DNA from: Syntrophaceae bacterium
GTDB taxonomy: Bacteria; Desulfobacterota; Syntrophia; Syntrophales; UBA5619
Direction: 5' to 3'
DNA: 13,893 bases
NCBI GenBank assembly: GCA_919902745.1
Contig: CAKKRN010000225.1
Span: forward strand, 1 to 13,893
Position numbers and translations under genes: made by a program. Of this stretch, positions 1 through 13,893 are shown in pieces. Numbering within the stretch: position 1 is the stretch's first letter; every line of letters starts with the position of its first letter. The notes beneath the pieces were generated by a model. It was not told where the DNA came from and ran no database searches. It saw only the letters and a program-made list of their open reading frames with translations.

Positions 1-7
1 AGAAACA

Positions 8-56
8 GTAACGCACCAAAAAGAGGAGCGGTGCGTCGAGACGCACCCTACACCTT
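8..56 (+). repeat. 49-base dispersed repeat, copy A
   Basis: This stretch matches the reverse complement of 5503-5551 at 46 of 49 positions by hand alignment. It contains the short palindrome GGTGCGTC-GA-GACGCACC and ends in CCCTACACCTT. It fills most of the non-coding lead before cobT, which starts 30 bases later. Copy B continues into a further hairpin on the side that corresponds to the window edge here, so this copy probably extends upstream of base 1. It looks like a small non-autonomous palindromic repeat. It encodes nothing that I can see. Confidence 0.8.
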
Positions 57-85
57 GAAAATTTGGAGAAGGAAAGGAAATTGCA

Positions 86-1150
86 ATGAGTCTGTTAGAG
101 GATACCGTTCGCCGAATTGTTCCCCAGGACGCCGCCTTCCGGTCGCAGGCCCACCGGCGCCTGGAGGCGCTGACGATGCCCTACTGGGCCCTCGGCCGCC
201 TCCTCGACCTCGCCGAGGATCTCGCCGGAATCACCCGCTCCATGCGTCCGCCCATCGCCCGAAAGGCGATCTTCACGATGGCCGGGGATCACGGCGTCGT
301 TGCCGAGGGGGTGAGCAAGTATCCTCAGGAAGTGACGCCGCAGATGGTTTACAATTTCGTCGCCGGCGGTGCGGGGATCAACGCGCTGGCCCGCCAGGTG
401 GGCGCCACCGTCACCGTCGTGGACATGGGCGTTGCCGGAGACATGAGCGGGCTTGCCGCCTCCGGAAAGATCCTCTCCCGGCGGATCGGTCCCGGCACGA
501 AAAACATGGCCGAGGGGCCGGCGATGAGCCGTGAGGAGGCCGTTCGCGCCGTTGAAGCCGGCATCGATGTCGCCCGGATGGCCGCGGAGACGGTCGATCT
601 CTTCGGCACCGGGGATATGGGGATCGGGAACACGACGCCGAGCAGCGCGATCGTCGCCGCCTTCAGCGGCCATCCGGCAGCGGAGGTGACCGGCCACGGC
701 ACCGGGATCGACGATGAGCAGTTCGCACACAAGGTCCGCGTCATCGAAAAATGCCTGCGGATCAACCGGCCGGATCCGAAGGATGGACTGGACGTCCTGG
801 CCAAGGTCGGCGGCTTCGAGATCGGCGGGATCGCGGGGCTGATCCTGGGCGCCGCCGCGCTGAAGAAGCCGGTTGTCATAGACGGCTTCATATCCGCGGC
901 GGGAGCGCTTATCGCCCACGCGCTCTGCCCCACGGCCGCCGAGTACATGATCGCCGCCCACCGGAGCGTGGAACAGGGCCACCGGATCGCGCTGGAGATT
1001 CTGGGAAAGCAGCCTTTGATCGACATCGACCTCCGCCTCGGCGAGGGAACGGGGGCGGCGCTGGCGATGAATTTCGTCGAGGCCGCCGTCCGGATCCTCA
1101 CCGAGGTGGCCACGTTTGACGAGGCGATGGTATCGAAGGCAAGCTCATGA
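86..1150 (+). CDS. cobT: Nicotinate-nucleotide--dimethylbenzimidazole phosphoribosyltransferase CobT
   Basis: Makes alpha-ribazole 5'-phosphate from nicotinate mononucleotide and the lower-ligand base (dimethylbenzimidazole in the classic case), the first step of nucleotide-loop assembly in the cytosol. The 354 residues match the family length. Visible signatures are AGDHGVVAEGVSKYPQEVT in the N-terminal third, GTGDMGIGNTTPSSA in the middle, and LGEGTGAAL near the C-terminus. Glu320 in that last motif corresponds by position to the catalytic glutamate of the Salmonella enzyme (inferred). The ATG is preceded by a purine-rich AGGAAA ribosome-binding site. It is the first complete gene of the window; cobS follows after about 55 bases. 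The lower base actually used cannot be read from the sequence, and no bza genes for benzimidazole synthesis are present here. Confidence 0.97.
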   Translation: MSLLEDTVRRIVPQDAAFRSQAHRRLEALTMPYWALGRLLDLAEDLAGITRSMRPPIARKAIFTMAGDHGVVAEGVSKYPQEVTPQMVYNFVAGGAGINALARQVGATVTVVDMGVAGDMSGLAASGKILSRRIGPGTKNMAEGPAMSREEAVRAVEAGIDVARMAAETVDLFGTGDMGIGNTTPSSAIVAAFSGHPAAEVTGHGTGIDDEQFAHKVRVIEKCLRINRPDPKDGLDVLAKVGGFEIGGIAGLILGAAALKKPVVIDGFISAAGALIAHALCPTAAEYMIAAHRSVEQGHRIALEILGKQPLIDIDLRLGEGTGAALAMNFVEAAVRILTEVATFDEAMVSKASS

Positions 1151-1209
1151 AAGACGACTTCGGCGTCCCGGAATTATGGCCATTGCGGCTTTTTTTGAGG
1201 GCATCATGA
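1147..1209 (+). other. Possible 20-codon coupling ORF between cobT and cobS
   Basis: An ATG overlaps the cobT stop (ATGA at 1147-1150) and the reading frame closes with a TGA that overlaps the cobS ATG (1206-1209). A GAAGG motif sits 7 bases upstream of the first ATG. The predicted peptide is [20 protein letters not shown], which I do not recognise. Its codons (TTA, TTT, TTG, TCA) are AT-rich compared with the neighbouring genes, so it may be a non-coding remnant that happens to be open. If translated, it would carry ribosomes from cobT to cobS. Confidence 0.2.
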
Positions 1210-1955
1210 AGCGGTTTCTCGCGGCTCTCCAGTTCCTGACGATCCTGCCTCTGCCCCGGGGCCTCAGTCCCGACGAGCGGGCGCTGGGGGGGTCCATCCC
1301 CTTCTTCCCGGTCGTCGGCCTCGGGATCGGCGCAGCGGTCGCCCTGATGGACTGGGGTCTCGGATTCCTCTTTCCCGTCGGCGTGACGAGCGTCTTTGCC
1401 GTCATCCTGCTGATCGCCGTCTCCGGCGGCCTCCATACGGACGGCCTCGCCGATACGGCGGACGGCTTCTTCAGCTCCCGCCCGCGCGAGCGGATCCTCG
1501 AGATTATGAGGGACAGCCGGACCGGGCCGATGGGGGTCGCCGCCATCGTCTGCGTGGTCGCGCTCAAAATCGCGCTCATCGCCTCGGTCTCCGGACCCTG
1601 GCGGTGGTGGGTCCTCCTGATGACGCCACTCGCCGGCCGGTGCGCCCTCCTCATCCAGATGGCCCTCCTCCCCTACGTCCGTCCGGAGGGCCTGGTCGGC
1701 ATCTTTCACCGGAATCGTTCCCGGAGCCACGCCCTCTGGGCGCTAACATTTTTAATCGCCGCGGGCGGCCTGGCGGGCGGCGTGTCCGGGCTGATTGCGG
1801 GGGTGGGCTCTTTTCTCTTTGCCCTCCTCTTTACGGCCTGCGTCCGGCGACGGATTGGCGGCCTCACCGGCGATACGCTGGGGGCGGCCTGCGAGCTGAC
1901 CGAACTCGTTCCCGCCCTCGTCGCGTCGGCCTGGCTATACGGAGGCGGCGCATGA
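1206..1955 (+). CDS. cobS: Adenosylcobinamide-GDP ribazoletransferase (cobalamin synthase) CobS
   Basis: Integral membrane enzyme that joins alpha-ribazole (or its phosphate) to adenosylcobinamide-GDP, the closing step of cobalamin assembly. From the chosen ATG it has 249 residues, normal for the family. It begins [17 protein letters not shown], the usual CobS opening, and carries the acidic signature [11 protein letters not shown] at residues 77-87. Several hydrophobic segments follow, including around residues 33-50, 59-75 and the long C-terminal Gly/Ala/Leu-rich stretch. I chose ATG 1206 because the family N-terminus begins there and GAGGG lies just upstream. In-frame ATGs at 1116 and 1176 would add unrelated residues. 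The stop overlaps the next start by 4 bases (ATGA). CobU, which makes its GDP-activated substrate, is not in the window. Confidence 0.95.
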
Positions 1956-4528
1956 CGGAACGACACGGCGGAAATCTGCTGAAACTTGCCCTGGCCGCGG
2001 GGAAACCCGTCGGGGAGATCCTCGACTTTTCGGCGAACATCAATCCGCTGGGGCCGCCGGAGGGGTTCCGGTCGCTGATCAGCGCACGGACCGGCGATCT
2101 CGTCCACTACCCCGATCCGGATTGCACCGACCTCGTCCGGGCCTTTGCGGTGCGGTACCGCGTCGCGGAAAACGAGATCCTGATGGGGAACGGCTCGACG
2201 GAGCTCCTCTACCTCCTCCCGCAGCTCCTTGGAAAAGTGCGCGCCCTGATCCCCGTCCCCGCCTATGTGGATTACGAACGCGCGGCGGAGCTCGCCGGTC
2301 TCGCCGTGGAGCGGCTTCCCCTTCGGGAGAAAGATGGCTTCGCCCCCGACCTCGCGGTGATCACAGCGGCGCTCCGGGGGGATGAGATCGTCTTCCTCGG
2401 CCGGCCGAACAACCCGACCGGACACATGATTCCGGCCGCCGCCTTGCGGGATCTCGCATCCCGCCATCCGCACACCATTTTCGTCAGCGACGAGGCCTTC
2501 GCCGATTTCGCACCGGAAGCGGAGACGCTGATCGAGTCCGGCCGCCCGGCGAATATCGTCATTCTCAAGTCCTTGACCAAGTTCTACGCGATGCCGGGCC
2601 TCCGCCTGGGCGGCGTCGTTGCGGCCCCGGAACTGATCCGGCGCCTCCGCGACCGGACGCCCCCCTGGTCCGTGAACACGCTCGCCCAGGCCGTCGGCGC
2701 GGCGGCGCTCCGCGACACGGCCTACGCGGAGGAGACCCTCCGCTTCGTCCGCGACCGGCGGGAAGGTCTGTTCGCGGCGCTCCAGGCGCTGCCGGGTCTC
2801 ACCGTCTATCCGGGGACGGCGAATTTTCTTCTCCTGCGGTCCGACCGGAGGAACCTCGACGCCCCGGAGATCGCCCAACACCTCCTCGCCGACGGGATCG
2901 CCATCCGCATCTGCGCGAACTTCGCCGGCCTCGACCGCCGGTTCTTCCGCATCGCCGTCCGGACGGAGACGGAGAATGACCGCCTCCTCGGCGCCCTCCG
3001 GAAGGTTATGGGAATTGCTAACAGAAAACCCGTCCGGCGGCGGACGCCCGCGATCATGTTCCAGGGAACCGGCTCCAACGCGGGCAAGAGCATCCTCGCC
3101 GCGGCGATGTGCCGGATCCTGCTCCAGGACGGCTTCCGGGTCGCCCCGTTCAAGGCGCAGAACATGTCGCTCAACTCTTACGTGACTCGCGGGGGGGGCG
3201 AGATGGGGCGGGCGCAGGTGGTCCAGGCCCAGGCGTGCCGGCTCGACCCGGACGTCCGGATGAACCCCGTCCTCCTCAAGCCGAACAGCGACACCGGCTC
3301 CCAGGTGATCATCCTCGGAAAGCCGATCGGCAACATGGATTTCTGGGAGTACACCCGCGACCGCACCCCTCCTTTTGCCGTCGCGCGCGAGGCGTACGAC
3401 GCGCTCGCCGCCGAACACGACGTCATCGTCCTGGAAGGGGCGGGGAGCCCCGCCGAGGTGAACCTCAAGAAACGGGACATCGTAAACATGAACATGGCCC
3501 TCTACGCGGAGGCGTCCGTCCTGATCGTCGGCGACATCGACCGGGGGGGCGTCTACGCCTCGTTCATCGGGACGATGGAGTGCCTGACGGAGCGGGAAAG
3601 GGCATTGGTCAAGGGGTTCGTCGTGAACCGCTTCCGGGGTCAGGAGGCGTTCCTCGCCGATGCCGACGAGTACATCCTCCGCCGGACCGGACGCCCCGTC
3701 CTCGGCGTCGTCCCCTACCTGCGCGATCTGGGCCTCCCCGAGGAGGACTCCGTCAGCTTCAAGGACGGCATGATCGACGGCCGCGCCCCCGAAGGCGAGC
3801 ATGTCGACATCGCCGTCGTCGATCTCGCCCACATCTCGAACTTCACCGACTTCGACCCGCTCCGGATCGAGCCGGACGTCCGCCTGCGCGTGGTCCGGCG
3901 GCCGGACGAGCTGGGCGAGCCGGATGCCGTGATCCTTCCCGGGAGCAAGAACGTGATCGGCGATCTGGCCGATCTGCAGGCAAACGGCATGGCATCGCGG
4001 ATTCTCGATCTCGCCCGTGGAGGGAAGACGGAGATCGCCGGGATATGCGGCGGCTTCCAGATCCTGGGCCGGGAGATCGCCGACCCCTTCGGGATCGAGT
4101 CCGCCGGCGGCCGAACGCTGGCCGGGCTGGGGCTCCTCCCCGTCCGGACGGAGCTCGCCAGGGAAAAGACCCTGACGCGCGCCGCCGCCCGCCACCTCGC
4201 CTCGGGTTGCGAGGTCCGCGGTTACGAGATCCACCACGGCCGAACCGACGGCGGCGGCCTCGCCCCGCTGATCCGGCGGAACGACGGCGAGATTATCGGC
4301 CGCGGAACGGAGACGGGCCTCCTCTGGGGGACCTACCTTCACGGGATCTTCGACGCGGACGGCTTCCGCCGCTGGTTCATCGACCGCCTCCGCAAAAGGC
4401 GGGGCCTTGCCCCGCTCAACCGGATCGCGGCCGTCTACGACCTGGAACCGGCCTTCGACCGCCTCGCCGAAGCGGTGCGGCGGTCGCTCAAGATGGACGC
4501 GATTTATAAAATTATGGGAATTTCATGA
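1952..4528 (+). CDS. cobD-cbiP: Fused threonine-phosphate decarboxylase (CobD) and cobyric acid synthase (CbiP/CobQ)
   Basis: One uninterrupted frame of 858 residues holds two enzymes. Residues 1 to about 352 are a PLP-dependent aminotransferase-fold L-threonine-O-3-phosphate decarboxylase: [11 protein letters not shown] near the start, NNPTG at 153-157, and [15 protein letters not shown] with Lys210 as the expected PLP lysine. From about residue 365 it is CbiP, which amidates side chains b, d, e and g with glutamine and [14 protein letters not shown] at 370-380, [10 protein letters not shown], the glutaminase nucleophile Cys699 in [10 protein letters not shown], and His797 in TYLHGIFD. The linker is only about 15 residues. 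An internal ATG at 3008 (residue 353) has GGAAGG just 2 bases upstream, too close for a good ribosome-binding site, so a single polypeptide is more likely than two. Both products are substrates of CbiB, the next gene, whose ATG overlaps the stop by 4 bases. Confidence 0.93.
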
Positions 4529-5484
4529 GGCTGGAATACCAGATCGCAATCGCACTGCTGCTCGACCTGGCCTTTGGAGATCCCCGGTGGCTGCCCCACC
4601 CGGTCCGCTTCATCGGCCGTCTGATCGCGGCTCTGGAGGAACCGGCCCGGCGGGCGATTCCGGACGCCCGTCTCGCGGGGAGTTTGATGGCGCTCGCGGT
4701 CATCCTGACGGCGGCCCTGGCAACGGGCGCGATGATCGGGGTTGCGGGATGGGTCCACCCCCGCCTCGGGGACGCGGTTTCCATCCTCCTCCTCTACACG
4801 ACGCTCGCCGCGCGCGACCTCGCCAACCACAGCAACGGGGTCTACCGGGCGCTCGCAAGATTCGATCTGGCCGAGGCGCGGCGCCTCGTCTCGTGGCTGG
4901 TCGGACGCGACACGGAGCGCCTGACCGAACCGGAGGTCGTCCGCGCGGCCGTGGAGAGCGTCGCCGAGAACACCGTGGACGGGATCATTGCCCCGCTCTT
5001 CTTCGCGGCGCTCGGAGGACCGATCGCGGCAATGGCCTACAAGGCGGCGAGCACGCTTGATTCGATGATCGGCTATCGGAACGAACGCTACATCGATTTC
5101 GGCCGGACCGCCGCGGAGATCGACGACGGGGCGAACTGGCTCCCCGCGCGTCTCGCGGCGCCCATCATCGCCGCCGCCGCAGCACTCACGGGGCAGAACG
5201 CCTCCGCCGCCTGGAGAATCGCCCGGCGCGACGGTCGAAAACACATGAGTCCCAATGCGGGGATCGCGGAGGCGGCGTTTGCCGGGGCGTTGGGAATCCG
5301 TCTGGGGGGCGTCATGCAACGGCGGGGGCGACCCGTAAACCTGCCGGAGATCGGCGATCCGGTCGTGACGCTCGCACACGGGCAGATCCTCGCCGCGAAT
5401 CGCATGATGGTTGCGGCGACGGGAATCGCCGTCGCGGTTTTCCTGGCGGCGCGCTGGGGAATCGCCGCGCTGCTGGAAATGTGA
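4525..5484 (+). CDS. cbiB: Adenosylcobinamide-phosphate synthase CbiB
   Basis: Membrane protein that condenses adenosylcobyric acid with (R)-1-amino-2-propanol O-2-phosphate to give adenosylcobinamide phosphate. The 319 residues match the family length. Recognisable blocks are [16 protein letters not shown] near the N-terminus, [15 protein letters not shown] in the middle, and then [20 protein letters not shown] with downstream [11 protein letters not shown]. Hydrophobic segments lie around residues 50-75 and at the C-terminus. The ATG overlaps the stop of cobD-cbiP (ATGA), so translation is probably coupled to the fused gene that makes both of its substrates. It ends the first gene block: a 187-base spacer of palindromic repeats follows instead of another overlapping start. 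Confidence 0.96.
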
Positions 5485-5502
5485 TAAAAAGAGAAGAGCA
5501 TT

Positions 5503-5574
5503 AAGGTGTAGGGTGCGTCTTGACGCACCGCTCCTTTTATTGGTGCGTTACGGCTTCCGCCTAACGCACCCTAC
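5503..5574 (-). repeat. Composite palindromic repeat, copy B (inverted relative to copy A)
   Basis: Bases 5503-5551 are the inverted copy of 8-56 (46 of 49 match). Two stem-loops are visible: GTGCGTC-TT-GACGCAC at 5513-5528, and GGTGCGTTA at 5542-5550 pairing with TAACGCACC at 5562-5570. The outer 11-mer GTAGGGTGCGT (5508-5518) is also the reverse complement of ACGCACCCTAC (5564-5574). This fills the first half of the spacer between cbiB and the adenosyltransferase gene. No reading frame or transposase is associated with it. It resembles the GTAGGGTGCGTTA-type palindromes scattered between genes in many bacteria (from memory, not checked). Confidence 0.8.
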
Positions 5575-5582
5575 ATCTCTGG

Positions 5583-5602
5583 ATACCGGCTTTCGCCGGT
5601 AT
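5583..5602. repeat. REP-like hairpin in the cbiB/adenosyltransferase spacer
   Basis: A perfect 8-base stem ATACCGGC / GCCGGTAT with a TTTC loop is followed by ATGACGGTTT. The same trailing motif follows the hairpin at 8410-8427, which argues for a dispersed repeat family. No run of T directly follows, so it is not a classic intrinsic terminator, though it could still affect transcript stability. The rest of the spacer (5603-5671) contains ACTTTTTGCGAG and the ribosome-binding site of the next gene. I see no riboswitch in it. Confidence 0.65.
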
Positions 5603-5671
5603 GACGGTTTGGGGAACTTTTTGCGAGTTCGTCATTCTTGAAGGTATCGATATCGAGAAGGAGAGTATCCG

Positions 5672-6199
5672 ATGGGTGACGCAGGCAGGATTTTGATCTT
5701 CACCGGCGATGGAAAGGGAAAGACGACGGCATCACTGGGGATGGCCCTCAGGGCGCACGGCCACGGCATCCCGGTCACGGTAATTCAGTTCGTCAAGTCC
5801 GATACAAAGACCGGCGAGTTCGCCGCCCTGAAAGGGATGGCCGACGTCGAGATCGTCGTGACGGGCCTCGGTTTCGTCCCGCGCCCAACCGATCCGCGAT
5901 TCGCGGACCACCGCCGGTCGGCGGAAGAAGGGCTCCGGATCGCCGGCGAGGCGGCCTTCTCGGGACGCTACGGACTGGTCATCCTCGACGAGGTCTGCAT
6001 GGCTGTCGCCCTGAAGTTGCTCGCCGAGGAAGCCGTCCTGGCGGTTCTCCACGAGGCGGCCCCCGATTGCACTGTCGTTCTGACCGGACGGGGCGCCACG
6101 GAAGGGCTGATCAAAGCCGCCGACACCGTCTCCGAGGTCCGCTGTATCAAGCACGGATTCGATAGCGGCCGGAAGGCCCAAAAGGGGGTGGAATTCTGA
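5672..6199 (+). CDS. cobO: Cob(I)yrinic acid a,c-diamide adenosyltransferase, CobA/CobO type
   Basis: Transfers the 5'-deoxyadenosyl group of ATP to the cob(I)alt corrinoid, forming the upper ligand. The 175 residues fit this ATP-dependent family (also called BtuR). The N-terminal phosphate-binding loop FTGDGKGKTTASLGMAL is clear at about residues 10-26. Further family blocks are VIQFVKSDTKTGE, the segment YGLVILDEVCMAVALKLL, and VVLTGRGATEGLIKAADTVSE near the C-terminus. A good ribosome-binding site (AAGGAGAG) precedes the ATG. It starts a new overlapping gene set after a 187-base repeat spacer, so a promoter may lie in that spacer, though I cannot identify one. Its TGA overlaps the ATG of cbiA by one base. 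The symbol could equally be given as cobA or btuR. Confidence 0.95.
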   Translation: MGDAGRILIFTGDGKGKTTASLGMALRAHGHGIPVTVIQFVKSDTKTGEFAALKGMADVEIVVTGLGFVPRPTDPRFADHRRSAEEGLRIAGEAAFSGRYGLVILDEVCMAVALKLLAEEAVLAVLHEAAPDCTVVLTGRGATEGLIKAADTVSEVRCIKHGFDSGRKAQKGVEF

Positions 6200-7692
6200 T
6201 GATCCGTTGCCCGACGCTCGTCATCGCCGGAACGCACAGCGGTGCGGGGAAAACCTCGTTTACGCTCGCGCTGGCGCGCGCACTCGCCCGCCGGGGTCGG
6301 GAAACCCAGACGTTCAAGGTGGGACCGGATTTCCTCGACCCGACCTATCTCGCCCTCGCCTCCGGACGCCCCTGCTATAACCTCGACGGCTGGATGGCCG
6401 GTCACGACCATTGCCGCCATCTCTTCGCGCGGGCCACATCTGACGCCGACTGCGCCCTCGTCGAAGGGGTCATGGGGCTCTTCGACGGGGCGGATGTGCA
6501 AAGCGATGAAGGAAGCACGGCAGAGATCGCCCGCCTGTTGGACGCCCCCGTTATTCTTGTCGTTAACGTTCACGGGATGGGCCGGAGCTTTGCCGCGCTC
6601 GTGAAGGGCTATACGACATTCCAGACGGATCTCCGCTTCACAGGAGTCGTCGCGAATCACTGCGGTTCAGAGCGCCATGCTGCGTTGCTTTCCGACTCCC
6701 TCCAGGCAGCCGGCTTGCCGCCGCTTCTGGGGGCGATCCCCCGCGGGGCTTTTCCGGAGCTTGCCTCCCGACACCTCGGCCTCGTCACCGCCGACCGGGG
6801 GCAACTCCCGGAGTCCCTCCTCGACGCCCTCGCCGATGCGCTGGAACAAAACCTGTCGTTGGAGACGCTCTTCCCGAAAATGCTAACGAAAACGACCAAG
6901 GCGACCGCTCCTCTCGATCCCGGCAAACGGAGCGATGCGCCCGATTCCTGCCAAATGACGCTCTTTCCCGAACCGAACGCAGCGGAAAGATCCGAACCTC
7001 CGGTGGCAACCCCCGCGATCGGAACGCCTGAATTCGCTCCATCACACGGCCGTCTGCGCATTGGCGTCGCACGGGACGCCGCTTTCCACTTCTATTACCA
7101 GGATCTCTTTGACGCCCTCCGGACGTCGGGCTGCGAGGTCCTCTTTTTCTCTCCCCTCGACGACCGCCGCCTGCCGGAAGGGCTCTTTGGTCTCTACCTC
7201 GGGGGAGGCTATCCGGAACTCCACGCAGAGCGCCTTGCGGAAAACGGGGAGATGCTCGCTGCGATCCGCGCTTACGCCGGCTCCGGAAGACCCCTCTACG
7301 CCGAATGTGGAGGGCTCATGTATCTCTCTCGGGGAATCGAGGCGGACGGCCGCTTTTACCCCCTCGCCGGCGTCCTCCCCACCCGGACGCGCATGCTCAC
7401 CGGCAAGAAGGCGCTCGGCTACGTGGAGGTCGCCTTGGCGGAGGACTCCCTCTGGGGCCGCCGTGGGGAGCTCCTGCGGGGACACGAATTCCACTATTCG
7501 GAGCTGATCGACGACCCGGCCTCCGACCCGGCCTGGCGGAAGGTTTATTCCCTCCGGCGCCGCCGCACGGATACGGTCGAAACCGAGGGATATCAAAACG
7601 GGGCGATCCTCGCGAGCTACACGCACCTCCACTACGCCTCCCGGCCGGCGGCGGTCGCCCGTTTTCTCGAACGATGCGGAGGTACGCCATGA
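6199..7692 (+). CDS. cbiA: Cobyrinic acid a,c-diamide synthase CbiA
   Basis: ATP- and glutamine-dependent amidase for side chains a and c of cobyrinic acid. The 497 residues are somewhat long for a family usually near 450-480. The N-terminal domain has the P-loop-like AGTHSGAGKTSFTLALA and then KVGPDFLDPTYLA, EGVMGLFDG and SDEGSTAEIARLL. The C-terminal class I glutaminase-like domain has LGGGYPELHAE, the nucleophile Cys370 in LYAECGGLMYLS, GYVEV, and SYTHLHYAS with the likely catalytic His at 476 or 478. The extra length lies in a Pro/Ala/Thr/Glu-rich linker between the domains, about residues 222-282, in which TLFP occurs twice, 31 codons apart. It overlaps its neighbours by 1 base upstream and 4 bases downstream. 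Confidence 0.95.
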   Translation: MIRCPTLVIAGTHSGAGKTSFTLALARALARRGRETQTFKVGPDFLDPTYLALASGRPCYNLDGWMAGHDHCRHLFARATSDADCALVEGVMGLFDGADVQSDEGSTAEIARLLDAPVILVVNVHGMGRSFAALVKGYTTFQTDLRFTGVVANHCGSERHAALLSDSLQAAGLPPLLGAIPRGAFPELASRHLGLVTADRGQLPESLLDALADALEQNLSLETLFPKMLTKTTKATAPLDPGKRSDAPDSCQMTLFPEPNAAERSEPPVATPAIGTPEFAPSHGRLRIGVARDAAFHFYYQDLFDALRTSGCEVLFFSPLDDRRLPEGLFGLYLGGGYPELHAERLAENGEMLAAIRAYAGSGRPLYAECGGLMYLSRGIEADGRFYPLAGVLPTRTRMLTGKKALGYVEVALAEDSLWGRRGELLRGHEFHYSELIDDPASDPAWRKVYSLRRRRTDTVETEGYQNGAILASYTHLHYASRPAAVARFLERCGGTP

Positions 7693-8378
7693 ACGAGACA
7701 CCCGGACGCCCGCTGATCCGCACCTTTCTGGACGCGCCGCTGAGCGGGCCGGAGATCGAAGCGAAATCGATGGCGATCATCGACCGGGAGGCCCCGGAGC
7801 ACCGGTTCACGCCGGAGGAGTGGCAAATCGTGCGCCGGATGATCCACACGACCGGCGATTTCGGGATCATGGAGGCGGTCCGTTTTTCGCCGGATGCGAT
7901 CGCCGCCGGCGTCGCGGCCCTTCATGGCTGCCGATCGCTCATCGTCGACTCGAACATGATCCGCTCGGGGATCTCCCTCGCCCGCCTGCGGGGCGTTTGC
8001 GGGTTTTACCGGAAGGAGAGCCTTATCTGCCACATTGCCGACGAGGATATCGAACGCACGGCCCGGCGGACCGGCCTCCCCCGCTCGCTCCATGCGATCG
8101 AGAAGGCCCGGCCCTTCATCGCCGGAGCGATCGCAGCCTTTGGAAACGCCCCGATTGCGCTGATGGAGCTGAACCGGATGATCGTTGAAGAGGGGCTCCG
8201 GCCGGCCCTCGTCGTCGCGATGCCGGTCGGCTTCGTCCACGTCGTGGAGAGCAAGGAGGAGCTGATGGCGCAGGGCGTTCCGTACATCGCGCTCGCCGGC
8301 CGCCGAGGGGGAAGCCCTCTCGCGGTGAGCGTCATCCACGCCCTCTGCGGCCTCGCGGGAACAGAAAAGAAGATGTAA
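7689..8378 (+). CDS. cbiC: Cobalt-precorrin-8 methylmutase CbiC
   Basis: Moves the methyl group from C11 to C12 to give cobyrinic acid. Of its 229 residues, the core carries family features: EIEAKSMAIIDREAP near the start, MIHTTGDFGIMEAVRFS with His53 matching the proton-transfer histidine of CobH/CbiC, VDSNMIRSGIS, ALMELNRMIVE, and AMPVGFVHVVESKEEL with GRRGGSPLAVSVIHAL at the end. I chose ATG 7689 because GGAGG lies 6 bases upstream and the codon overlaps the cbiA stop (ATGA). An in-frame ATG at 7674 lacks such a site. It directly follows cbiA, which acts on its product, and it closes the second overlapping set: a 126-base repeat spacer follows. Confidence 0.95.
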   Translation: MNETPGRPLIRTFLDAPLSGPEIEAKSMAIIDREAPEHRFTPEEWQIVRRMIHTTGDFGIMEAVRFSPDAIAAGVAALHGCRSLIVDSNMIRSGISLARLRGVCGFYRKESLICHIADEDIERTARRTGLPRSLHAIEKARPFIAGAIAAFGNAPIALMELNRMIVEEGLRPALVVAMPVGFVHVVESKEELMAQGVPYIALAGRRGGSPLAVSVIHALCGLAGTEKKM

Positions 8379-8384
8379 ATCAGC

Positions 8385-8491
8385 GACGGCTCCCTACTTA
8401 TCGAGTTTGCCCCCGCGCAAGCGGGGGCGGGAATGACGGTTTTTACAATGATGGTTGCCGGAGAAATAATCGGGAGCTGTCCCTGTTTATC
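8385..8491. repeat. Small palindromic element between cbiC and cbiX
   Basis: A 7-base stem CCCCCGC / GCGGGGG with a GCAA tetraloop (8410-8427) is followed by GGGAATGACGGTTTTT. It is bracketed by an imperfect inverted repeat, GACGGCTCCC at 8385-8394 against GGGAGCTGTC at 8472-8481 (9 of 10 pair), and by a direct repeat TCCCTACTTATC (8391-8402) / TCCCTGTTTATC (8480-8491). This accounts for nearly the whole spacer (8379-8504) up to the cbiX ribosome-binding site. It looks like a MITE- or REP-type insertion. It could attenuate transcription, but no T-run follows the stem directly. Confidence 0.55.
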
Positions 8492-8504
8492 AAAGGAGTG
8501 ATCC

Positions 8505-8936
8505 ATGGGAGAAGAGGCGGTAATGCGGGCCGTGATCCTGATCGGCCACGGGAGCCGCGCCGCGGGCGCCGACGACGACATGGAAAAGATCGCGGCGGGG
8601 CTGAGGGCGAAGCTCGGCGGGATCGTCGCGACCTGCCGGATGTCCGGCCATGGGATCCCGTTCGACGAGGCGTTCGATCAATGCGTTCGCCAAGGGGCAA
8701 AGAGCGTGATCGTCCTCCCCTACTTCCTCCACTTCGGCGTTCACCTCCGCGAGGACATCCCGGAGATGATCCGAAAGGCTGCGCGGAGAAGCCCGGAGGT
8801 CCGTCTTGTTCTGGGAAGACACCTCGGCTACGACGACGTCCTCGTAACCCTCGTCGCGAAACGGATCGGGGAGTCGGAGGGTCTCTGCGACGTCCGGGAA
8901 CTCGCCCCGGCGCTGATCGACCGTTGCCCCGGATAG
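8505..8936 (+). CDS. cbiX: Sirohydrochlorin cobaltochelatase, small form (CbiX-S)
   Basis: Inserts cobalt into sirohydrochlorin at the entry to the cobalt-early pathway. The 143 residues correspond to the short, single-domain CbiX that works as a homodimer in archaea and some bacteria. Motifs seen are ILIGHGSRAAGADDD with His15, and VLPYFLHFGVHLREDIPE with His76 and His80. In characterised CbiX-S the equivalent of His15 and one of the latter pair are the metal and catalytic ligands (family knowledge). There is no histidine-rich tail. I chose ATG 8505 because AGGAG lies about 6 bases upstream; ATG 8523 would also leave the fold intact. It sits right before the cobalt transporter genes, which supports cobalt rather than iron or nickel as its metal. 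Confidence 0.9.
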   Translation: MGEEAVMRAVILIGHGSRAAGADDDMEKIAAGLRAKLGGIVATCRMSGHGIPFDEAFDQCVRQGAKSVIVLPYFLHFGVHLREDIPEMIRKAARRSPEVRLVLGRHLGYDDVLVTLVAKRIGESEGLCDVRELAPALIDRCPG

Positions 8937-8960
8937 GGTGACGGCTATTCTGTGTGTTCC

Positions 8961-8967
8961 GGAGGAG
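8961..8967 (+). promoter_or_regulatory. Strong ribosome-binding site that sets the formal start of cbiM
   Basis: GGAGGAG lies 8 bases upstream of ATG 8976. It is the best translation start for the cbiM frame, yet it is 270 bases upstream of the codon for the conserved mature N-terminus (9246). The site and the mature protein are therefore separated by a palindromic, non-protein-like stretch. Confidence 0.6.
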
Positions 8968-8975
8968 ATACAGGC

Positions 8976-9911
8976 ATGATCGATGATCGCGTAAAAACCC
9001 GTACAACCGTCACCCCTTCGAAGGCAGGCGCCCGGAACGGCTTGCATGGGGGCTCCATCCCCCGATTGCCCCGGACGGCCGGAATCGCCGCTGCAAGAAA
9101 TTTGCGCAACTTGGAAATCGGATCCCGGAAGCGCGCATTGGAGATTTTTCGGGTCGAAAAATGTCCAGCGCGCGGAGGGATCACGATTTCCAAAGGTCTC
9201 GCTGCGGCCGCTTTTCTGTGTGCGCTGCCGTCGCCCGCTTTCGCCATGCACATCTCCGAGGGGATACTGCCCATCTCCTGGGCGGTTCTCTGGTATGCGG
9301 TCGCCCTCCCCTTCGTCGCCTGGGGCCTCCGGGACCTCCGTCGCCGCAGCGAAGAAACCCCTTGGTTCAAGCCGCTGGTCGGCCTCGTCGGGGCGGCGGT
9401 CTTCCTCATCTCCTGCATGCCGATCCCCGTTCCCAGCGCCGGGACCTGCTCCCACCCCTCCGGTACGGGCATTGCCGCAATCCTGATCGGTCCGGGATTG
9501 ACCACGGTCGTCGCGAGCATCGCGCTCACGCTCCAGGCCCTCTTCCTCGCCCACGGCGGGATCACGACCCTCGGGGCAAACATCGTCTCGATGGGTGTGG
9601 CCGGCGCATGGGTCGGCTGGGGCGTTTTCACGGCAGCGAGGCGCCTCGGCCTCCCCTGGTTCGCAGCCGCCTTTCTCGCGGGGATGTTCTCCGACTGGGC
9701 CACCTACGCGACGACCTCCCTCGAACTGGCCGCCGCGCTCCACGGAGACGGATCGTTTACGACGATGTTCTCGCTCATCCTGCTCGCCTTCGTCCCCACG
9801 CAGCTCCCCCTCGGCATCCTTGAAGGGTTCCTCTGCGCGGGAGTGCTGAAGTTCATCCGGAACCGGAGACCCGAACTCCTCCGGACCGTTCCGGCGGGAG
9901 GCGCGGCATGA
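8976..9911 (+). CDS. cbiM: Cobalt ECF transporter S-component CbiM, with odd N-terminal extension
   Basis: Membrane substrate-binding subunit that captures cobalt. The conserved protein begins at 9246 with MHISEGILP, where the Met-His pair coordinates the metal in the CbiM/NikM family. It is preceded by a signal-peptide-like stretch LAAAAFLCALPSPAFA. The mature part has 221 residues with several membrane helices, the block CMPIPVPSAGTCSHPSGTG (His70 of the mature form is a likely ligand), and GGITTLGANIVSMGVAGAWVG. The start is uncertain. ATG 8976 has an excellent ribosome-binding site but adds about 70 Arg-rich residues before the signal peptide, part of them encoded by an 83-base palindrome. 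In-frame TTG codons (9102, 9111, 9138) or ATT 9186, with GGAGG 7 bases upstream, could give a normal leader. The stop overlaps the next gene by 4 bases. Confidence 0.88.
   Translation: MIDDRVKTRTTVTPSKAGARNGLHGGSIPRLPRTAGIAAARNLRNLEIGSRKRALEIFRVEKCPARGGITISKGLAAAAFLCALPSPAFAMHISEGILPISWAVLWYAVALPFVAWGLRDLRRRSEETPWFKPLVGLVGAAVFLISCMPIPVPSAGTCSHPSGTGIAAILIGPGLTTVVASIALTLQALFLAHGGITTLGANIVSMGVAGAWVGWGVFTAARRLGLPWFAAAFLAGMFSDWATYATTSLELAAALHGDGSFTTMFSLILLAFVPTQLPLGILEGFLCAGVLKFIRNRRPELLRTVPAGGAA
9111..9193. repeat. 83-base near-perfect palindrome inside the 5' part of cbiM
   Basis: The arms run from TTGGAAATCG (9111) to CGATTTCCAA (9184-9193). Inside are GATCCC against GGGATC, GCGCGC-AT-TGGA against TCCA-GCGCGC, and a perfect core ATTTTTCG-GGT-CGAAAAAT at 9144-9162. 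It would fold as one long hairpin with a few bulges. It is open in the cbiM frame but its translation looks unlike protein. It ends exactly where the signal peptide begins. I interpret it as a mobile palindromic repeat inserted at the start of cbiM. A structured leader is the alternative. Confidence 0.75.
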
Positions 9912-10198
9912 AGAAATGGATCCCGATCCTGATTTTTGCCGGAATCCTCCTCTCCGGACCGATGTCGACCTCCGGCCGGGCCGCCTCCTGGTCCGGCGTC
10001 GACGAGACCGTGATCGAAAAATTCGCGGAGAAGGCGGGACGGCCGGCTCGCGAACCCTTCATCAACACCGACCAGGGGGATCTCCTTCTGTTCGTCTTTC
10101 TGCTGGCCGGTGCGGTCGGGGGATTCGCCGCCGGATACTGGTTCCGCGTCCTTTTCCCGCCGAGGAGGAAAAACGCAGATGGTTCGACAGTTTCATGA
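9908..10198 (+). CDS. cbiN: Small membrane protein, CbiN-like cobalt transporter subunit
   Basis: A protein of 96 residues with an N-terminal hydrophobic segment (about residues 4-24), a periplasmic-size loop (about 25-56) and a C-terminal membrane helix (about 57-80), followed by a short basic tail. This two-helix plan and its place between cbiM and cbiQ fit CbiN, the auxiliary subunit that helps load cobalt into CbiM. The loop sequence DETVIEKFAEKAGRPAREPF and the following TDQGDLLLFVFLLAG are not the textbook enterobacterial CbiN pattern, so I call it CbiN-like. The ATG overlaps the cbiM stop (ATGA). The gene ends 122 bases before cbiQ. Confidence 0.7.
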   Translation: MKKWIPILIFAGILLSGPMSTSGRAASWSGVDETVIEKFAEKAGRPAREPFINTDQGDLLLFVFLLAGAVGGFAAGYWFRVLFPPRRKNADGSTVS

Positions 10199-10201
10199 TG
10201 A

Positions 10202-10301
10202 TATGGCATAACCTGACCATAGCATGCTTGCAGTCAGCGTGACTGCATAACCCTGTCACCCTGAGCCTCTTGAAGGGTGACGCGATCCCGGTCATAACGG
10301 G
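10202..10301. repeat. Hairpin-rich spacer between cbiN and cbiQ
   Basis: The 122-base gap holds several symmetric elements. They are TATGG / CCATA (10202-10221), a perfect 8-base stem TGCAGTCA-GCG-TGACTGCA at 10229-10247, TCACCCT / AGGGTGA at 10256-10280, and a short CCCG / CGGG at 10287-10301. A direct repeat GCATAACCTG (10206-10215) / GCATAACCCTG (10245-10255) overlaps them. The 10256-10280 hairpin resembles dispersed TCACCCTGAG...AGGGTGA repeats. None is followed by a T-run, so none is a clear terminator. An operator for a metal regulator is possible but unsupported. Confidence 0.6.
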
Positions 10302-10320
10302 AAAAGGATGTTAAAGCGCC

Positions 10321-11100
10321 ATGTTTGATCTCTTTTCGGACATATTCACCTACCGGGACAACGCCCTGACACGGATCGATCCGCGGGTGAAGCTTCTGAT
10401 CGCGCTGGCCGCGCTCATTGCCGTCGTGACCTCAGCGCGGCCGGTTCTCCCGCTCGCCGTCTTTGTCCTTTGCCTCGGGACCATCGCCGCACTCCGGATC
10501 CCGGCGAAGCTCGTCGCGCTGCGCCTCGCCGCGCCGTTTTCGACCGTCGCGATCCTGGTCGTGATCCAGACCTTCGTCACCGGGACGACGCCGCTCTTCT
10601 CGCTGACCCTCGGCGGCTGGACGCTCACGGCGAAGGCCGAGGGGCTCCGGCAGGGGCTGCTCCTCGGCGCGCGCGTCCTTGGCGCCCTCAGCATTGTCCT
10701 CCTCCTCGGCATCGCGACGCCGGCCCACCGGATCTTCCAGGCGCTCCGCGGATTCCGGATCTCGAAGGAGTGGGTGGAAATCGCGATCCTGATGTACCGA
10801 TACATCTTCGTCCTGATGGACCGCGCGGGCGATCTCGCCGCCGCCCAGCGCCTCCGTCTCGGCTACACGGCGCCGCGCCGCGCGCTCGCCTCCTTCACCG
10901 CGCTTGCCGGGGCAACGGTCGTCCACTCTTTCGAACAGGCCGGCCGGACCCATGACGCAATGCGGCTGCGCGGCTACCGGGGGACGATGCCCTTCGGACC
11001 GCTCCCGGCGCTGGGGCGCAGGGACCGCGGACTCCTCGCCCTCTTGCTGACCGTGATCGCCGCCGCTTACGGGTTTTTCGCGTGGGGGATAACCGGATGA
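10321..11100 (+). CDS. cbiQ: Cobalt ECF transporter transmembrane component CbiQ
   Basis: The T-component that couples ATP hydrolysis by CbiO to cobalt movement through CbiM. The 259 residues match the family. The start MFDLFSDIFTYRDNALTRIDPRVKLL is typical. Hydrophobic segments follow at roughly 24-42, 43-60, 66-84, 115-138 and the C-terminus (about 240-256). The cytoplasmic coupling region shows RISKEWVEIAILMYRYIFVL and later EQAGRTHDAMRLRGYRG (from about residue 205), the conserved A-x-R-x-R-G contact for the ATPase. The start codon has only a distant AAGGA (12 bases away), so translation may be weaker here, or it may depend on the preceding spacer. The stop overlaps cbiO by 4 bases. Confidence 0.95.
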   Translation: MFDLFSDIFTYRDNALTRIDPRVKLLIALAALIAVVTSARPVLPLAVFVLCLGTIAALRIPAKLVALRLAAPFSTVAILVVIQTFVTGTTPLFSLTLGGWTLTAKAEGLRQGLLLGARVLGALSIVLLLGIATPAHRIFQALRGFRISKEWVEIAILMYRYIFVLMDRAGDLAAAQRLRLGYTAPRRALASFTALAGATVVHSFEQAGRTHDAMRLRGYRGTMPFGPLPALGRRDRGLLALLLTVIAAAYGFFAWGITG

Positions 11101-11966
11101 GGGCGGTCGATGTTCAAGGGGTCTCCTTCACCTACGACGACGGGACCGAGGCGCTCGCCGGAATCGATTTCCGCGTCGAAGAGGGCGAGTTCGTTGCGGT
11201 CCTGGGCTCCAACGGCTCGGGGAAGACGACGCTGATCCAGCTCCTCGTCGGCCTCCTCAAGGCAAAGTCGGGGCGGATCGCCATCGGCGGGCGGGAGATC
11301 GGAAGCCTCACGGCTGAGGAGCTCTACCAGCGGGTCGGCCTCGTCTTCCAGAACCCGAACGACCAGCTCTTTGCCGCGACCGTGGAAGAGGACTGCGCTT
11401 TCGGCCCCCGGAACCTGAACCTCCCGGAGGCGGAGGTGCAACGGCGGGTGACCGAATCGCTCGCGGCGGTCGCAGCGCTCCCGCTGCGGGAAAGGGCGAT
11501 CCATCACCTGAGCTTCGGGGAGCAGAAGCGGGTCTCGCTCGCGGGTGTCCTGGCGATGCGGCCGGCGGTTCTGATCCTCGACGAACCGACGGCGGGCCTC
11601 GATCCGGCCGGCGAGGCGCAGATGATGCAGCTCCTGAAAAAGCTGAACCGCGAGGAGCGGATGACGGTGATCCTCGCCACCCACTCGGTGGATATGCTGC
11701 CGCTCTTCGCGAACCGGATTTACGTCCTCGACCGCGGCCGGGTCCTCCAGCAGGGGCCGTCCGAGGAGATCTTCTGCCACCAGGAGATGATAGTCCGGGC
11801 GAAACTCCGGCTTCCCTACGTCTCCCGTCTGATGTATGAGATGAAGCGGCACGACGGCGTCCCGATCGACGGCCTTCCGCTGACGATCGGGGAGGCGCGG
11901 GCGCAGCTCCTGGAGCTGATCCCGAAGGAGATGATCCTCCCGGGAATCGAGGAGATCGGGCCATGA
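11097..11966 (+). CDS. cbiO: Cobalt ECF transporter ATP-binding protein CbiO
   Basis: Energises cobalt uptake as the A-component of the ECF transporter. It has 289 residues. Walker A is GSNGSGKTT at 37-45, the Q-loop is FQNPNDQLFA, the ABC signature LSFGEQ is at 138-143, Walker B ends in ILDEPTAGLDP from about 160, and the H-loop histidine is in ILATHSVD. The C-terminal part past about 220 is the usual CbiO extension. I chose ATG 11097 because it overlaps the cbiQ stop (ATGA) and GGGGGA lies 7 bases upstream. A GTG at 11082 would add five residues. Its own stop overlaps the following 38-codon ORF. Confidence 0.95.
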   Translation: MRAVDVQGVSFTYDDGTEALAGIDFRVEEGEFVAVLGSNGSGKTTLIQLLVGLLKAKSGRIAIGGREIGSLTAEELYQRVGLVFQNPNDQLFAATVEEDCAFGPRNLNLPEAEVQRRVTESLAAVAALPLRERAIHHLSFGEQKRVSLAGVLAMRPAVLILDEPTAGLDPAGEAQMMQLLKKLNREERMTVILATHSVDMLPLFANRIYVLDRGRVLQQGPSEEIFCHQEMIVRAKLRLPYVSRLMYEMKRHDGVPIDGLPLTIGEARAQLLELIPKEMILPGIEEIGP

Positions 11967-12079
11967 ACGCATTGTGCAATGGATGCACCACGGGGGGCTG
12001 TGCCGCGGCGGCGAAAGCGGCCCTCCTGTTCCTTGTTGAAGGCAGGCAGTCCGAAAGGATTGAGGAGGCCGGACCGTGA
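11963..12079 (+). CDS. 38-residue ORF resembling the N-terminus of CbiD
   Basis: The ATG overlaps the cbiO stop (ATGA), with GAGGAG 8 bases upstream. The TGA overlaps the GTG start of cbiD (GTGA at 12076-12079). It begins MNALCNGCTTGGCAAAAKAA and aligns end to end with the first 39 residues of CbiD (MSALREGYTTGSCAAAAAKA), with one gap and about 19 identities in the first 28 positions. The DNA of this part is also alike (about 63 of 87 aligned bases by hand), so it is most simply a tandem duplication of the cbiD 5' end that has diverged. It has gained cysteines at positions 5 and 8 and keeps the motif cysteine at 13. It could be a pseudo-leader, a coupling peptide or a small metal- or partner-binding protein. 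I know no function for it. Confidence 0.6.
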   Translation: MNALCNGCTTGGCAAAAKAALLFLVEGRQSERIEEAGP

Positions 12080-13131
12080 GCGCGCTGCGGGAGGGATACA
12101 CCACCGGAAGCTGCGCCGCGGCGGCGGCAAAGGCGGCCCTCCTGCTTCTTGCGGAAGAGCTGGCGACCGAAGAGGTGGAGATCCCCTTTCCCGACGGGCA
12201 GAGGCGTCGTCTGCCGGTCGACCATGTCCGGCGGACGGACGAAGGGGCGGAGGCGGCGGTCCGGAAGGATGCGGGCGACGATCCGGACGTGACGAACGGC
12301 GCTCTGATTGCGGCCGCTATCGTCTGGACCGAAGGCAACGAGGTGGAATTCGCCGCTGGAGAAGGCGTGGGAACGGTAACGAAGCCGGGGCTGGCCATAC
12401 CCCCCGGCAAGCCGGCCGTCAATCCCGTGCCGCAGCGGATGATCCGGGAGGCGGTCCGGGAGGTCACGTTCCGCGGCGTCCGGGTGACGATCTCGATTGA
12501 CGGAGGCCGGGAACTGGCCGCAAAGACCTTCAACCCGCGGCTCGGCATCGCGGGCGGGCTCTCGATCCTCGGGACAACGGGAATCGTCCGGCCGTTCAGT
12601 TGCTCCGCGCTGCGCGAGACCCTCCGGTGCGCGCTGCGCGTGGCGGCAGCCACGGGCATCCGGGCGCCGGTATTCGTCCCCGGCCACATCGGCGAGCGGG
12701 CCGCGCGGAGCCATTTCCGCGTCACGCCGGAGCAGGTTGTGGAGGTCGGAAACGAGTGGGGGTTCGCCATCGACGAGGCCGCCCGGGAGCCCTTCGCTGC
12801 GCTCCTGATGGTCGGCCACCCGGGAAAACTGGCCAAACTGACGGCGGGCGGCTGGGACACCCACTCCGGAAGGTCGGGGAGCGCACTCCCCATTGTTGCG
12901 GAAATGCATGCAGCCATTTTGGGGCGGCCGGCGGCGGAGACCCCCACGGTCGAGGGAATCTTCGCGGCCATCGACGGGGGGGAGAAAAAGAGGCTGGGGA
13001 ACACCCTGGCGGCGGCGATCCAAAAGGCCGTCGGCAAACGGACGGAGGGGCGTCTCAACGCGGCCGTGGTCCTCATCGACCTCGGCGGCCGCATCCTCGG
13101 TTTATCGGGAGATCGGGAACCATGGCTGTAG
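12076..13131 (+). CDS. cbiD: Cobalt-precorrin-5B (C1)-methyltransferase CbiD
   Basis: SAM-dependent methylation at C1 during corrin ring contraction in the anaerobic pathway. It has 351 residues, normal for the family. The N-terminal signature GYTTGSCAAAAAKAALLL is at 7-24. Further on come ISIDGGRELAAKTFNPRLG and IAGGLSILGTTGIVRPFS, then FVPGHIGERAARSHF, and GGWDTHSGRSGSALPIVAEMH in the C-terminal third. The start is GTG 12076, with GAGGAGG 7 bases upstream. The codon overlaps the stop of the CbiD-like mini-ORF. The 3' end overlaps cbiE by 10 bases. Confidence 0.96.
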   Translation: MSALREGYTTGSCAAAAAKAALLLLAEELATEEVEIPFPDGQRRRLPVDHVRRTDEGAEAAVRKDAGDDPDVTNGALIAAAIVWTEGNEVEFAAGEGVGTVTKPGLAIPPGKPAVNPVPQRMIREAVREVTFRGVRVTISIDGGRELAAKTFNPRLGIAGGLSILGTTGIVRPFSCSALRETLRCALRVAAATGIRAPVFVPGHIGERAARSHFRVTPEQVVEVGNEWGFAIDEAAREPFAALLMVGHPGKLAKLTAGGWDTHSGRSGSALPIVAEMHAAILGRPAAETPTVEGIFAAIDGGEKKRLGNTLAAAIQKAVGKRTEGRLNAAVVLIDLGGRILGLSGDREPWL

Positions 13132-13769
13132 AAAAAAAGAAGATCATCATCGTCGGGTGCGGACCCGGTGCGGAATCCTACATCACACCGGCGGCCCGGG
13201 CGGCCGCGGTGAAGGCCGACGTCCTCATCGTCTCCCGGCGCCTGAAGGAGTTCTTTCCGGAGGTCGCCGCGGAGAGGATCGATTCGGGCGTGGACATCGA
13301 GGGAACCCTCGACGAGATCGCCTCCCGCCGTGACACCGGGCGGCAGGTGATTATCCTCGCCACGGGTGATCCGGGGATTGCGAGCCTGGCACAACCGGTG
13401 ATCCGGCGCTTCGGACGGGAGAACTGCGAGGTGATCCCCGGTATCAGCTCCATCCAGGTCGCCTTCGCAAAACTCGGCCTCGACTGGCAGGACGCGAGGA
13501 TCATCTCGGCCCACAGCTCCGATCCGGAGATCTCCGCCGCCGATCTGCGCCCTGCCGGAAAGATTGCGGTCCTCGGGGGGAGGGAAGGATCGCTCCGCTG
13601 GGCCGCCGGGCTGATCCCGGAGCTCGGGAAAGGCCGGCGCGTGTTCCTCTGCGAAGACCTCACCCTACCCGACGAAAAGTTCCGCGAGGTCCGCGCCGAT
13701 GAGCTGATCCGAATTCCGGTCTCGTCGCGGGCGATCATCCTCATCATTCAGGGAGAACTGTTAGAATGA
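13122..13769 (+). CDS. cbiE: Cobalt-precorrin-7 (C5)-methyltransferase CbiE
   Basis: SAM-dependent methylation at C5. The protein of 215 residues has the tetrapyrrole methylase fold: IIIVGCGPGAESYITPAA at about 8-25 (glycine-rich N-terminal loop), VLIVSRRL, ILATGDPGIASL with Asp83, and VIPGISSIQVAFAKLGLDW (from about residue 104). The choice of CbiE over other methylases of the fold rests on the GCGPGAxxYIT start, the length and the position next to cbiD. It stands alone: many relatives have a CbiE-CbiT fusion of about 400 residues, but here the frame stops and cbiL starts at once (ATGA overlap at 13766). ATG 13122 lies inside the end of cbiD, preceded by a weak GGGA. Confidence 0.88.
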   Translation: MAVEKKKIIIVGCGPGAESYITPAARAAAVKADVLIVSRRLKEFFPEVAAERIDSGVDIEGTLDEIASRRDTGRQVIILATGDPGIASLAQPVIRRFGRENCEVIPGISSIQVAFAKLGLDWQDARIISAHSSDPEISAADLRPAGKIAVLGGREGSLRWAAGLIPELGKGRRVFLCEDLTLPDEKFREVRADELIRIPVSSRAIILIIQGELLE

Positions 13770-13893
13770 ATACGGGTACACTCTACGGCATCGGGATCGG
13801 GCCAGGCGACCCGGAGTTGATCACCCTGAAGGGGGCGCGGCTCATCAGCGCCTGCCGGAACCTCTTCGTCCCCAAGGCGCGGACGGCGTCGGA
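13766..13893 (+). CDS. cbiL: Cobalt-precorrin-2 (C20)-methyltransferase CbiL, 5' part only
   Basis: Only 42 codons are present before the window ends. They begin MNTGTLYGIGIGPGDPELIT and continue LKGARLISACRNLFVPKA, the N-terminal signature of the tetrapyrrole methylases, closest to CbiL/CobI by the TLYGIGIGPGDPELIT pattern and the FVPKAR segment. The ATG overlaps the cbiE stop. CbiL would methylate C20 of cobalt-precorrin-2, just after CbiX. The rest of the gene is outside the window, so completeness cannot be judged. Confidence 0.85.
   Translation, partial: MNTGTLYGIGIGPGDPELITLKGARLISACRNLFVPKARTAS

Follow-up and report, generated by a model that had tools for sequence, protein, structure and literature searches.

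Gene setting and signals of the mini-ORF

The stretch of DNA analyzed here (13,893 nt, hereafter the window) lies on an 18.6-kb contig in a metagenome bin of 1.84 Mb that comprises 323 contigs and is 85.5% complete. It carries a large cobalamin gene cluster without a recognized cobalamin riboswitch, since an Rfam search over positions 1–13893 gave no match at the gathering score. The features around the junction of cbiO, the ATP-binding subunit gene of a cobalt transporter, and cbiD are collected in Table 1. CbiD has one relative with a solved structure (1sr8_A). Elsewhere in the window, positions 1604–4528 (+) hold a single continuous frame of 974 aa with aminotransferase class I/II, CbiA-type, and GATase_3 domains, presumably an aminotransferase fused to cobyric acid synthase.

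Successive genes overlap all the way from cbiQ to the gene that follows the methylase gene, at 11097–11100, 11963–11966, 12076–12079, 13122–13131, and 13766–13769; the overlaps are of the ATGA or GTGA type, except for the 10 nt shared by cbiD and the methylase gene. This segment looks built for coupled translation, and its overlaps suggest that the operon uses translational coupling.

Table 1. Features at and around the cbiO/cbiD junction, in positions of the window.
Feature	Position	Strand	Basis
cbiQ	10321–11100		Pfam
cbiO, ATP-binding subunit of cobalt transporter	11097–11966	+	Pfam ABC_tran, 109.8 bits on 11100–11963
GAGGAG, Shine-Dalgarno-like site of the mini-ORF, within cbiO	11949–11954	+	read from the sequence
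mini-ORF, ATG...TGA, 38 aa, CbiD-head-like then cbiO-tail-like	11963–12079	+	sequence and relatives
cbiO tail, second copy	12062–12075	+	14 of 18 nt as in the first copy, start codon counted
CbiD head, second (original) copy	12076–12180	+	63 nt at 12118–12180 71% identical to 12002–12064
cbiD, intact, GTG start	12076–13131	+	Pfam CbiD, 316.4 bits
tetrapyrrole methylase gene, 3' of cbiD	start 13122		Pfam

The initial annotation described a 38-codon frame with its own GAGGAG site and 4-base overlaps with cbiO and cbiD, and this description is borne out. The mini-ORF encodes MNALCNGCTTGGCAAAAKAALLFLVEGRQSERIEEAGP; it shares ATGA (11963–11966) with cbiO and GTGA (12076–12079) with cbiD, and a spacing test places stop and start at −4 nt on both flanks. 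GAGGAG stands ahead of the first start in all six readable junctions of the genus. The second cbiO tail holds AGGAGG at 12063–12068, the likely ribosome-binding site of cbiD. At these positions, the second copy reads GAGGAGGCC versus GAGGAGATC in the first copy in the window's genome, G010, and G004; this difference yields AGGAGG, and the cbiD start alongside is GTG. The Pfam CbiD model (PF01888) scores 20.4 bits on the mini-ORF peptide, below its gathering cutoff of 25 bits, and some relatives of the mini-ORF, mostly of 39 aa, have a precomputed PF01888 match. An RNA element was considered and rejected, with a folding z of 0.08 for 11930–12110 and no Rfam match at the gathering score.

Origin of the mini-ORF by junction duplication

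The mini-ORF arose long ago as a tandem copy, now imperfect, of the junction between the end of cbiO and the start of cbiD. Its first 102 nt align locally with the start of cbiD at a DNA score of 97, against maxima of 41 in 2,000 base shuffles and 50 in 2,000 codon shuffles, which confirms the earlier observation of an N-terminal near copy of CbiD with DNA similarity over the same span. The span itself was incompletely described, however, as the likeness extends into the end of cbiO (Table 1), which makes the cbiO|cbiD junction the unit that was copied. Along the DNA, a cbiO tail followed by a CbiD head occurs twice in succession, with the last codons and stop of cbiO forming the upstream half of the duplicated unit. 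Tandem Repeats Finder did not list the mini-ORF/cbiD copy in the window, and a separate repeat search of the window detects it; these searches gave no other comparable tandem copy in the window.

Since the copied unit is a junction, the ribosome-binding site, start, stop, and overlaps arrived with the copy. The intact frame and the overlaps at both ends, formerly read as a sign that this is no simple recent duplicate, are present but largely automatic for a junction duplicated in the right phase. The one-codon deletion relative to CbiD, also noted earlier, is confirmed, and 39-codon relatives without it exist (P0003 and P0008). On the basis of these relatives, the original unit would have measured 116 bp, with the CbiD head passing into the cbiO tail near codon 34. 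The distance from the mini-ORF start to the cbiD start is 113 nt in the window's genome, G010, and G004 and 104 nt in G009, and it would be 116 or 119 nt for relatives of 39 and 40 aa if these too end at a 4-nt overlap. All of these spacings are 2 modulo 3, the phase in which both overlaps are preserved, and a unit length with this remainder is what the duplication event itself needed.

Distribution among relatives

Eleven genomes of the genus were sampled, of which seven have CbiD and six a readable cbiO/cbiD junction; G003 was excluded, since its match lies at a contig end and starts only with CbiD residue 19. A recognizable copy of the mini-ORF occurs in three of the six junctions (the window's genome, G010, and G004). 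G009 has a very divergent open frame of 35 codons, MSPLRGGYAAAASPNANTGFHMQDGRDARIKEPGL, in the same place, while G006 and G007 have no mini-ORF and join cbiO and cbiD by a direct 4-nt overlap, an arrangement also met outside the genus (G013, G015, and G020). The G009 frame is without the CbiD motif, yet it ends at the cbiD overlap. As a whole, it resembles the other mini-ORFs (0–1 of 3,000 codon shuffles score as high), but its core does so marginally (74–108 of 3,000) and it is not clearly similar to the cbiD of its own genome (40 of 2,000 shuffles as high), for which reasons a common origin with the other mini-ORFs is uncertain.

In the cbiD tree, G006 is sister to the clade of the window's genome (support 100) and G007 to G009 (support 98). 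If this gene tree reflects the history, the mini-ORF would have been gained once and lost twice, or else gained twice. The G006 cbiD (L021, start at 2001) begins ATGAAC, as do the mini-ORFs of the window's genome and G010; the second codon is AGC in the other eight of nine CbiD heads examined. The mini-ORF begins ATGAAA in G004 and ATGAGT in G009, and 18 of 23 mini-ORF peptides have Asn as their second residue. A hybrid start of this kind is expected from the collapse of a repeat; G006 therefore probably lost its copy through recombination between the repeats, as judged from one base.

Among the 155 genomes of the order that were searched, only the window's genome, G010, and G004 yielded two matches at E ≤ 0.1. 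Within the window's genome, which is 85.5% complete, the sequence of the mini-ORF was found only here and in cbiD itself rather than as a dispersed multi-copy element, and a mobile repeat was rejected on account of this single place in the bin. A widespread upstream peptide was likewise rejected: a survey that kept 80 of 98 qualifying loci and scored 77 with 60 shuffles each (L023 and L046, without the motif, and L038, with too little upstream DNA, were left unscored) gave four loci above all shuffles, L019 and L020 clearly and L063 and L095 by one point, the latter two being taken as chance. The G009 locus (L022) was at chance level in this survey.

In public protein clusters, 7,987 candidates were scored, and the best 120 of 148 were listed; among the matches listed, 22 clusters including the window's own have E ≤ 3.2e-13 and lengths of 38–40 aa. 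The frame lengths met (38, 39, 40, and 35 codons) all keep phase, in what is a biased sample of called ORFs. The database holds called ORFs of limited length, from which broken copies would be missed. One entry, P0027 (71 aa), begins MNALCNGFTTGGCAAAT like the mini-ORF and does not resemble it thereafter; it is perhaps a frameshifted, broken, or relocated copy. The initial annotation had named relatives without the ORF or with broken versions of it, together with a lack of purifying selection, as marks of a neutral scar. The ORF is absent from two of six relatives, P0027 is possibly frameshifted, and purifying selection, as described below, is weak and not firmly shown.

Constraint on the peptide and the frame

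Among the window's genome, G010, and G004, the mini-ORF has 17 changes, eight synonymous and nine nonsynonymous, corresponding to omega of 0.38, 0.43, and 0.49 for kappa of 1, 2, and 4 (one-sided p of 0.044, 0.071, and 0.11); the same three-genome method gives 0.15–0.18 for cbiO. Third positions account for 10 of the 17 changes (p = 0.027). Pairwise omega is 0.34, 0.24, and 0.84 for the mini-ORF versus 0.37, 0.26, and 0.30 for cbiD in the same pairs. The cbiD of G004 is one codon longer than its counterparts.

A neutrality test was applied to 23 mini-ORF peptides, omitting P0023 (40 aa), P0027 (71 aa), the G009/P0009 form (35 aa), and P0002, which is identical to the window's. The peptides contain 62 distinct replacements, 56 of them reachable by a single nucleotide change, and the mean BLOSUM62 score of these 56 is −0.70 against −0.57 ± 0.17 expected under random mutation (kappa 2). 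The number of variable positions is 33, with 31.2 expected. The TTG motif of CbiD decays faster than expected in these peptides, with 15 changes in motif residues 8–13 against 8.9 expected (13–19 of 2,000 simulations as high under six settings). By eye on the 23-peptide alignment, the motif is intact in 12 peptides, including the window's, and lost in 11, and it is intact in all nine CbiD heads of the family. Examples of drift include Gly11 to Glu or Arg, Val22 to Asp, and Leu25 to Pro.

As a control, 32 CbiD heads (a more diverged set, residues 2–33) were treated in the same way; their 65 reachable changes have a mean BLOSUM62 of 0.02 against −0.48 ± 0.14 expected, with three motif changes against 12.5 expected (0 of 2,000 simulations). 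This strongly non-neutral outcome indicates that the test is able to detect selection when it is present. For the nine CbiD heads of the family alone, with 18 reachable changes, the BLOSUM score does not reach significance (504 of 2,000), and there are no motif changes against 2.9 expected (72 of 2,000).

Of the cysteines noted earlier, Cys5 is found in 22 of 23 peptides and Cys13 in 20, and Cys8 occurs in the window's peptide alone; the G009 frame has no cysteine. In our reading, neither the CbiD motif nor a metal site needing Cys8 is a reason for which the peptide is kept; some constraint is possible. Overall, the peptide appears to drift and probably has no function of its own.

In neutral simulations, the three close frames and that of G009 all stay free of stops in 19–45% of runs, depending on the assumed branch lengths. 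The chance of no frameshift is 0.000–0.033 with one indel per 10 substitutions and 0.019–0.18 with one per 20, both indel rates being assumed. None of the 17 changes falls within the 24 nt that precede the stop of the mini-ORF and hold the ribosome-binding site of cbiD (p = 0.018, for a stretch chosen post hoc), and for the last 15 nt, the absence of changes has p = 0.091. Active maintenance of the frame is only suggestive because neutral runs so often stay free of stops, the indel rates are assumed, and P0027 may be broken.

Comparison with known systems

Several known systems share features with the mini-ORF. Mycobacterial interspersed repetitive units (MIRUs) are presented in an excerpt of PMC12548453 as short inserts whose ORF is coupled at −4 nt downstream. 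The mini-ORF has the same −4 nt overlap with its downstream gene, and in both, the ORF likely softens the effect of insertion; MIRUs, however, are repetitive and appear mobile, whereas the mini-ORF is a local tandem copy from the flanking genes. The same excerpt notes that short ORFs may "deliver" ribosomes to a downstream gene (PMC12548453). Such upstream ORFs resemble the mini-ORF in their 4-nt downstream overlap and own ribosome-binding site, but the mini-ORF lies within an operon, overlaps both genes, and shows its origin as a junction duplication.

AcnSP is a 44-aa N-terminal duplicate derived from aconitase B that tunes aconitase, according to the text available from PMC7336809, and like the mini-ORF, it is an ORF of approximately 40 aa that copies the N-terminus of a metabolic enzyme. 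It differs in being plasmid-borne and 81% identical to the AcnB N-terminus, with a function shown in that text (PMC7336809), whereas the mini-ORF lies in cis and appears to be drifting. With CbiD (PF01888) itself, the mini-ORF shares approximately its first 34 residues, which derive from it, but it falls under the Pfam cutoff, has no enzyme body, and is losing the TTG motif. In the open-licence literature searched, no paper was found that joins tandem duplication, overlapping genes, and translational coupling, and these searches brought no earlier report of such a case to light.

Interpretation of the mini-ORF

The explanation that we consider best, and rather probable, is that the mini-ORF is a tolerated duplication scar, perhaps kept open, that relays translation from cbiO to cbiD while its peptide drifts. 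In its favor are a copied unit that reaches across the junction, the age of the copy, spacings that preserve the frame, and a drifting peptide. In an ancestor within the genus, approximately 116 bp across the overlapping cbiO end and cbiD start would have been duplicated in tandem, possibly by slippage or by recombination at short matches. A unit of this length would have let the reading frame of the copied cbiD head run on into the copied cbiO tail, and a mini-cistron would thus have been born with its own ribosome-binding site, start, and stop and a 4-nt overlap with each neighbor. In relatives, cbiO and cbiD share a direct 4-nt overlap, which has the geometry of termination–reinitiation coupling. 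Were the mini-ORF absent, 109 nt would separate the stop of cbiO from the start of cbiD, a gap that should weaken or break such coupling; the mini-ORF may instead hand ribosomes on in two 4-nt steps. For six gene pairs in E. coli and Haloferax volcanii, reinitiation was almost completely abolished at a spacing of approximately 20 nt, as reported in an excerpt of PMC10666635. Counting against the relay are one study with coupling at +50 nt and more, cited in the excerpt of PMC12548453, and the pairwise omega values, by which the mini-ORF is, on few changes, not clearly less constrained than cbiD. The other weak coding-type signals, the frame retention that neutral simulation often reproduces, P0027, the uncertain origin of the G009 frame, and the starts of G004 and G009, which differ from ATGAAC, also weigh on this side. 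The initial annotation had offered a decayed tandem duplication kept open by coupling as one of its two explanations; the decayed junction copy fits this well, and that coupling actively keeps the frame open is what we infer from the arrangement.

A pure neutral scar, in which the copy is idle, cbiD starts from its own AGGAGG, and the frame is open by descent and high G+C, is rather unlikely. The phase-keeping length changes (38, 39, 40, and 35 codons, albeit among called ORFs, a biased sample), the unchanged last 24 nt in three genomes (p = 0.018, post hoc; 0.091 for the last 15 nt), and the 21 further clusters of 38–40 aa among the matches listed speak against it, even if the absence of stops from four frames in 19–45% of neutral simulations, the random-looking replacements, the lack of the copy in G006 and G007, and the possible broken relative P0027 are what it would predict. 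Even an assembly artefact might be suspected in a bin of 323 contigs, but it is scarcely credible: two other genomes share the arrangement in a diverged form of the sequence, and several data sources supply matching proteins.

The second explanation of the initial annotation, a co-opted small protein that binds CbiD, or cobalt through its cysteines, and so tunes the cobalamin pathway, fares poorly and is judged improbable. The replacements look random, 11 of the 23 peptides have lost the TTG motif, Cys8 is unique to the window, the G009 frame has no cysteine, and two relatives have no ORF. Weak coding-type signals remain in its favor, namely, omega below 1 (p of 0.04–0.11), the excess of third-position changes (p = 0.027), and the retention of Cys5 (22/23) and Cys13 (20/23), along with the precedent of AcnSP as given in the excerpt of PMC7336809. 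In a particular form of this idea, the junction copy would be a working small gene acting on CbiD that keeps its MNALCN head and Cys5/Cys13 and sheds the CbiD motif; the chance of this is slim, but if it were true, duplication of an overlapping stop/start junction could give rise in one step to small coupled genes wherever the genes of an operon overlap tightly.

The case is a modest curiosity of operon evolution. It suggests that a tandem duplication across a 4-nt overlap can create a complete mini-cistron in one event, and it offers a natural test of the tolerance of operons to insertions at coupled junctions. To gene callers, such mini-ORFs mimic conserved small genes, which calls for caution in small-protein annotation; among the matches listed, three of the 22 clusters carry the name CbiD in their source.
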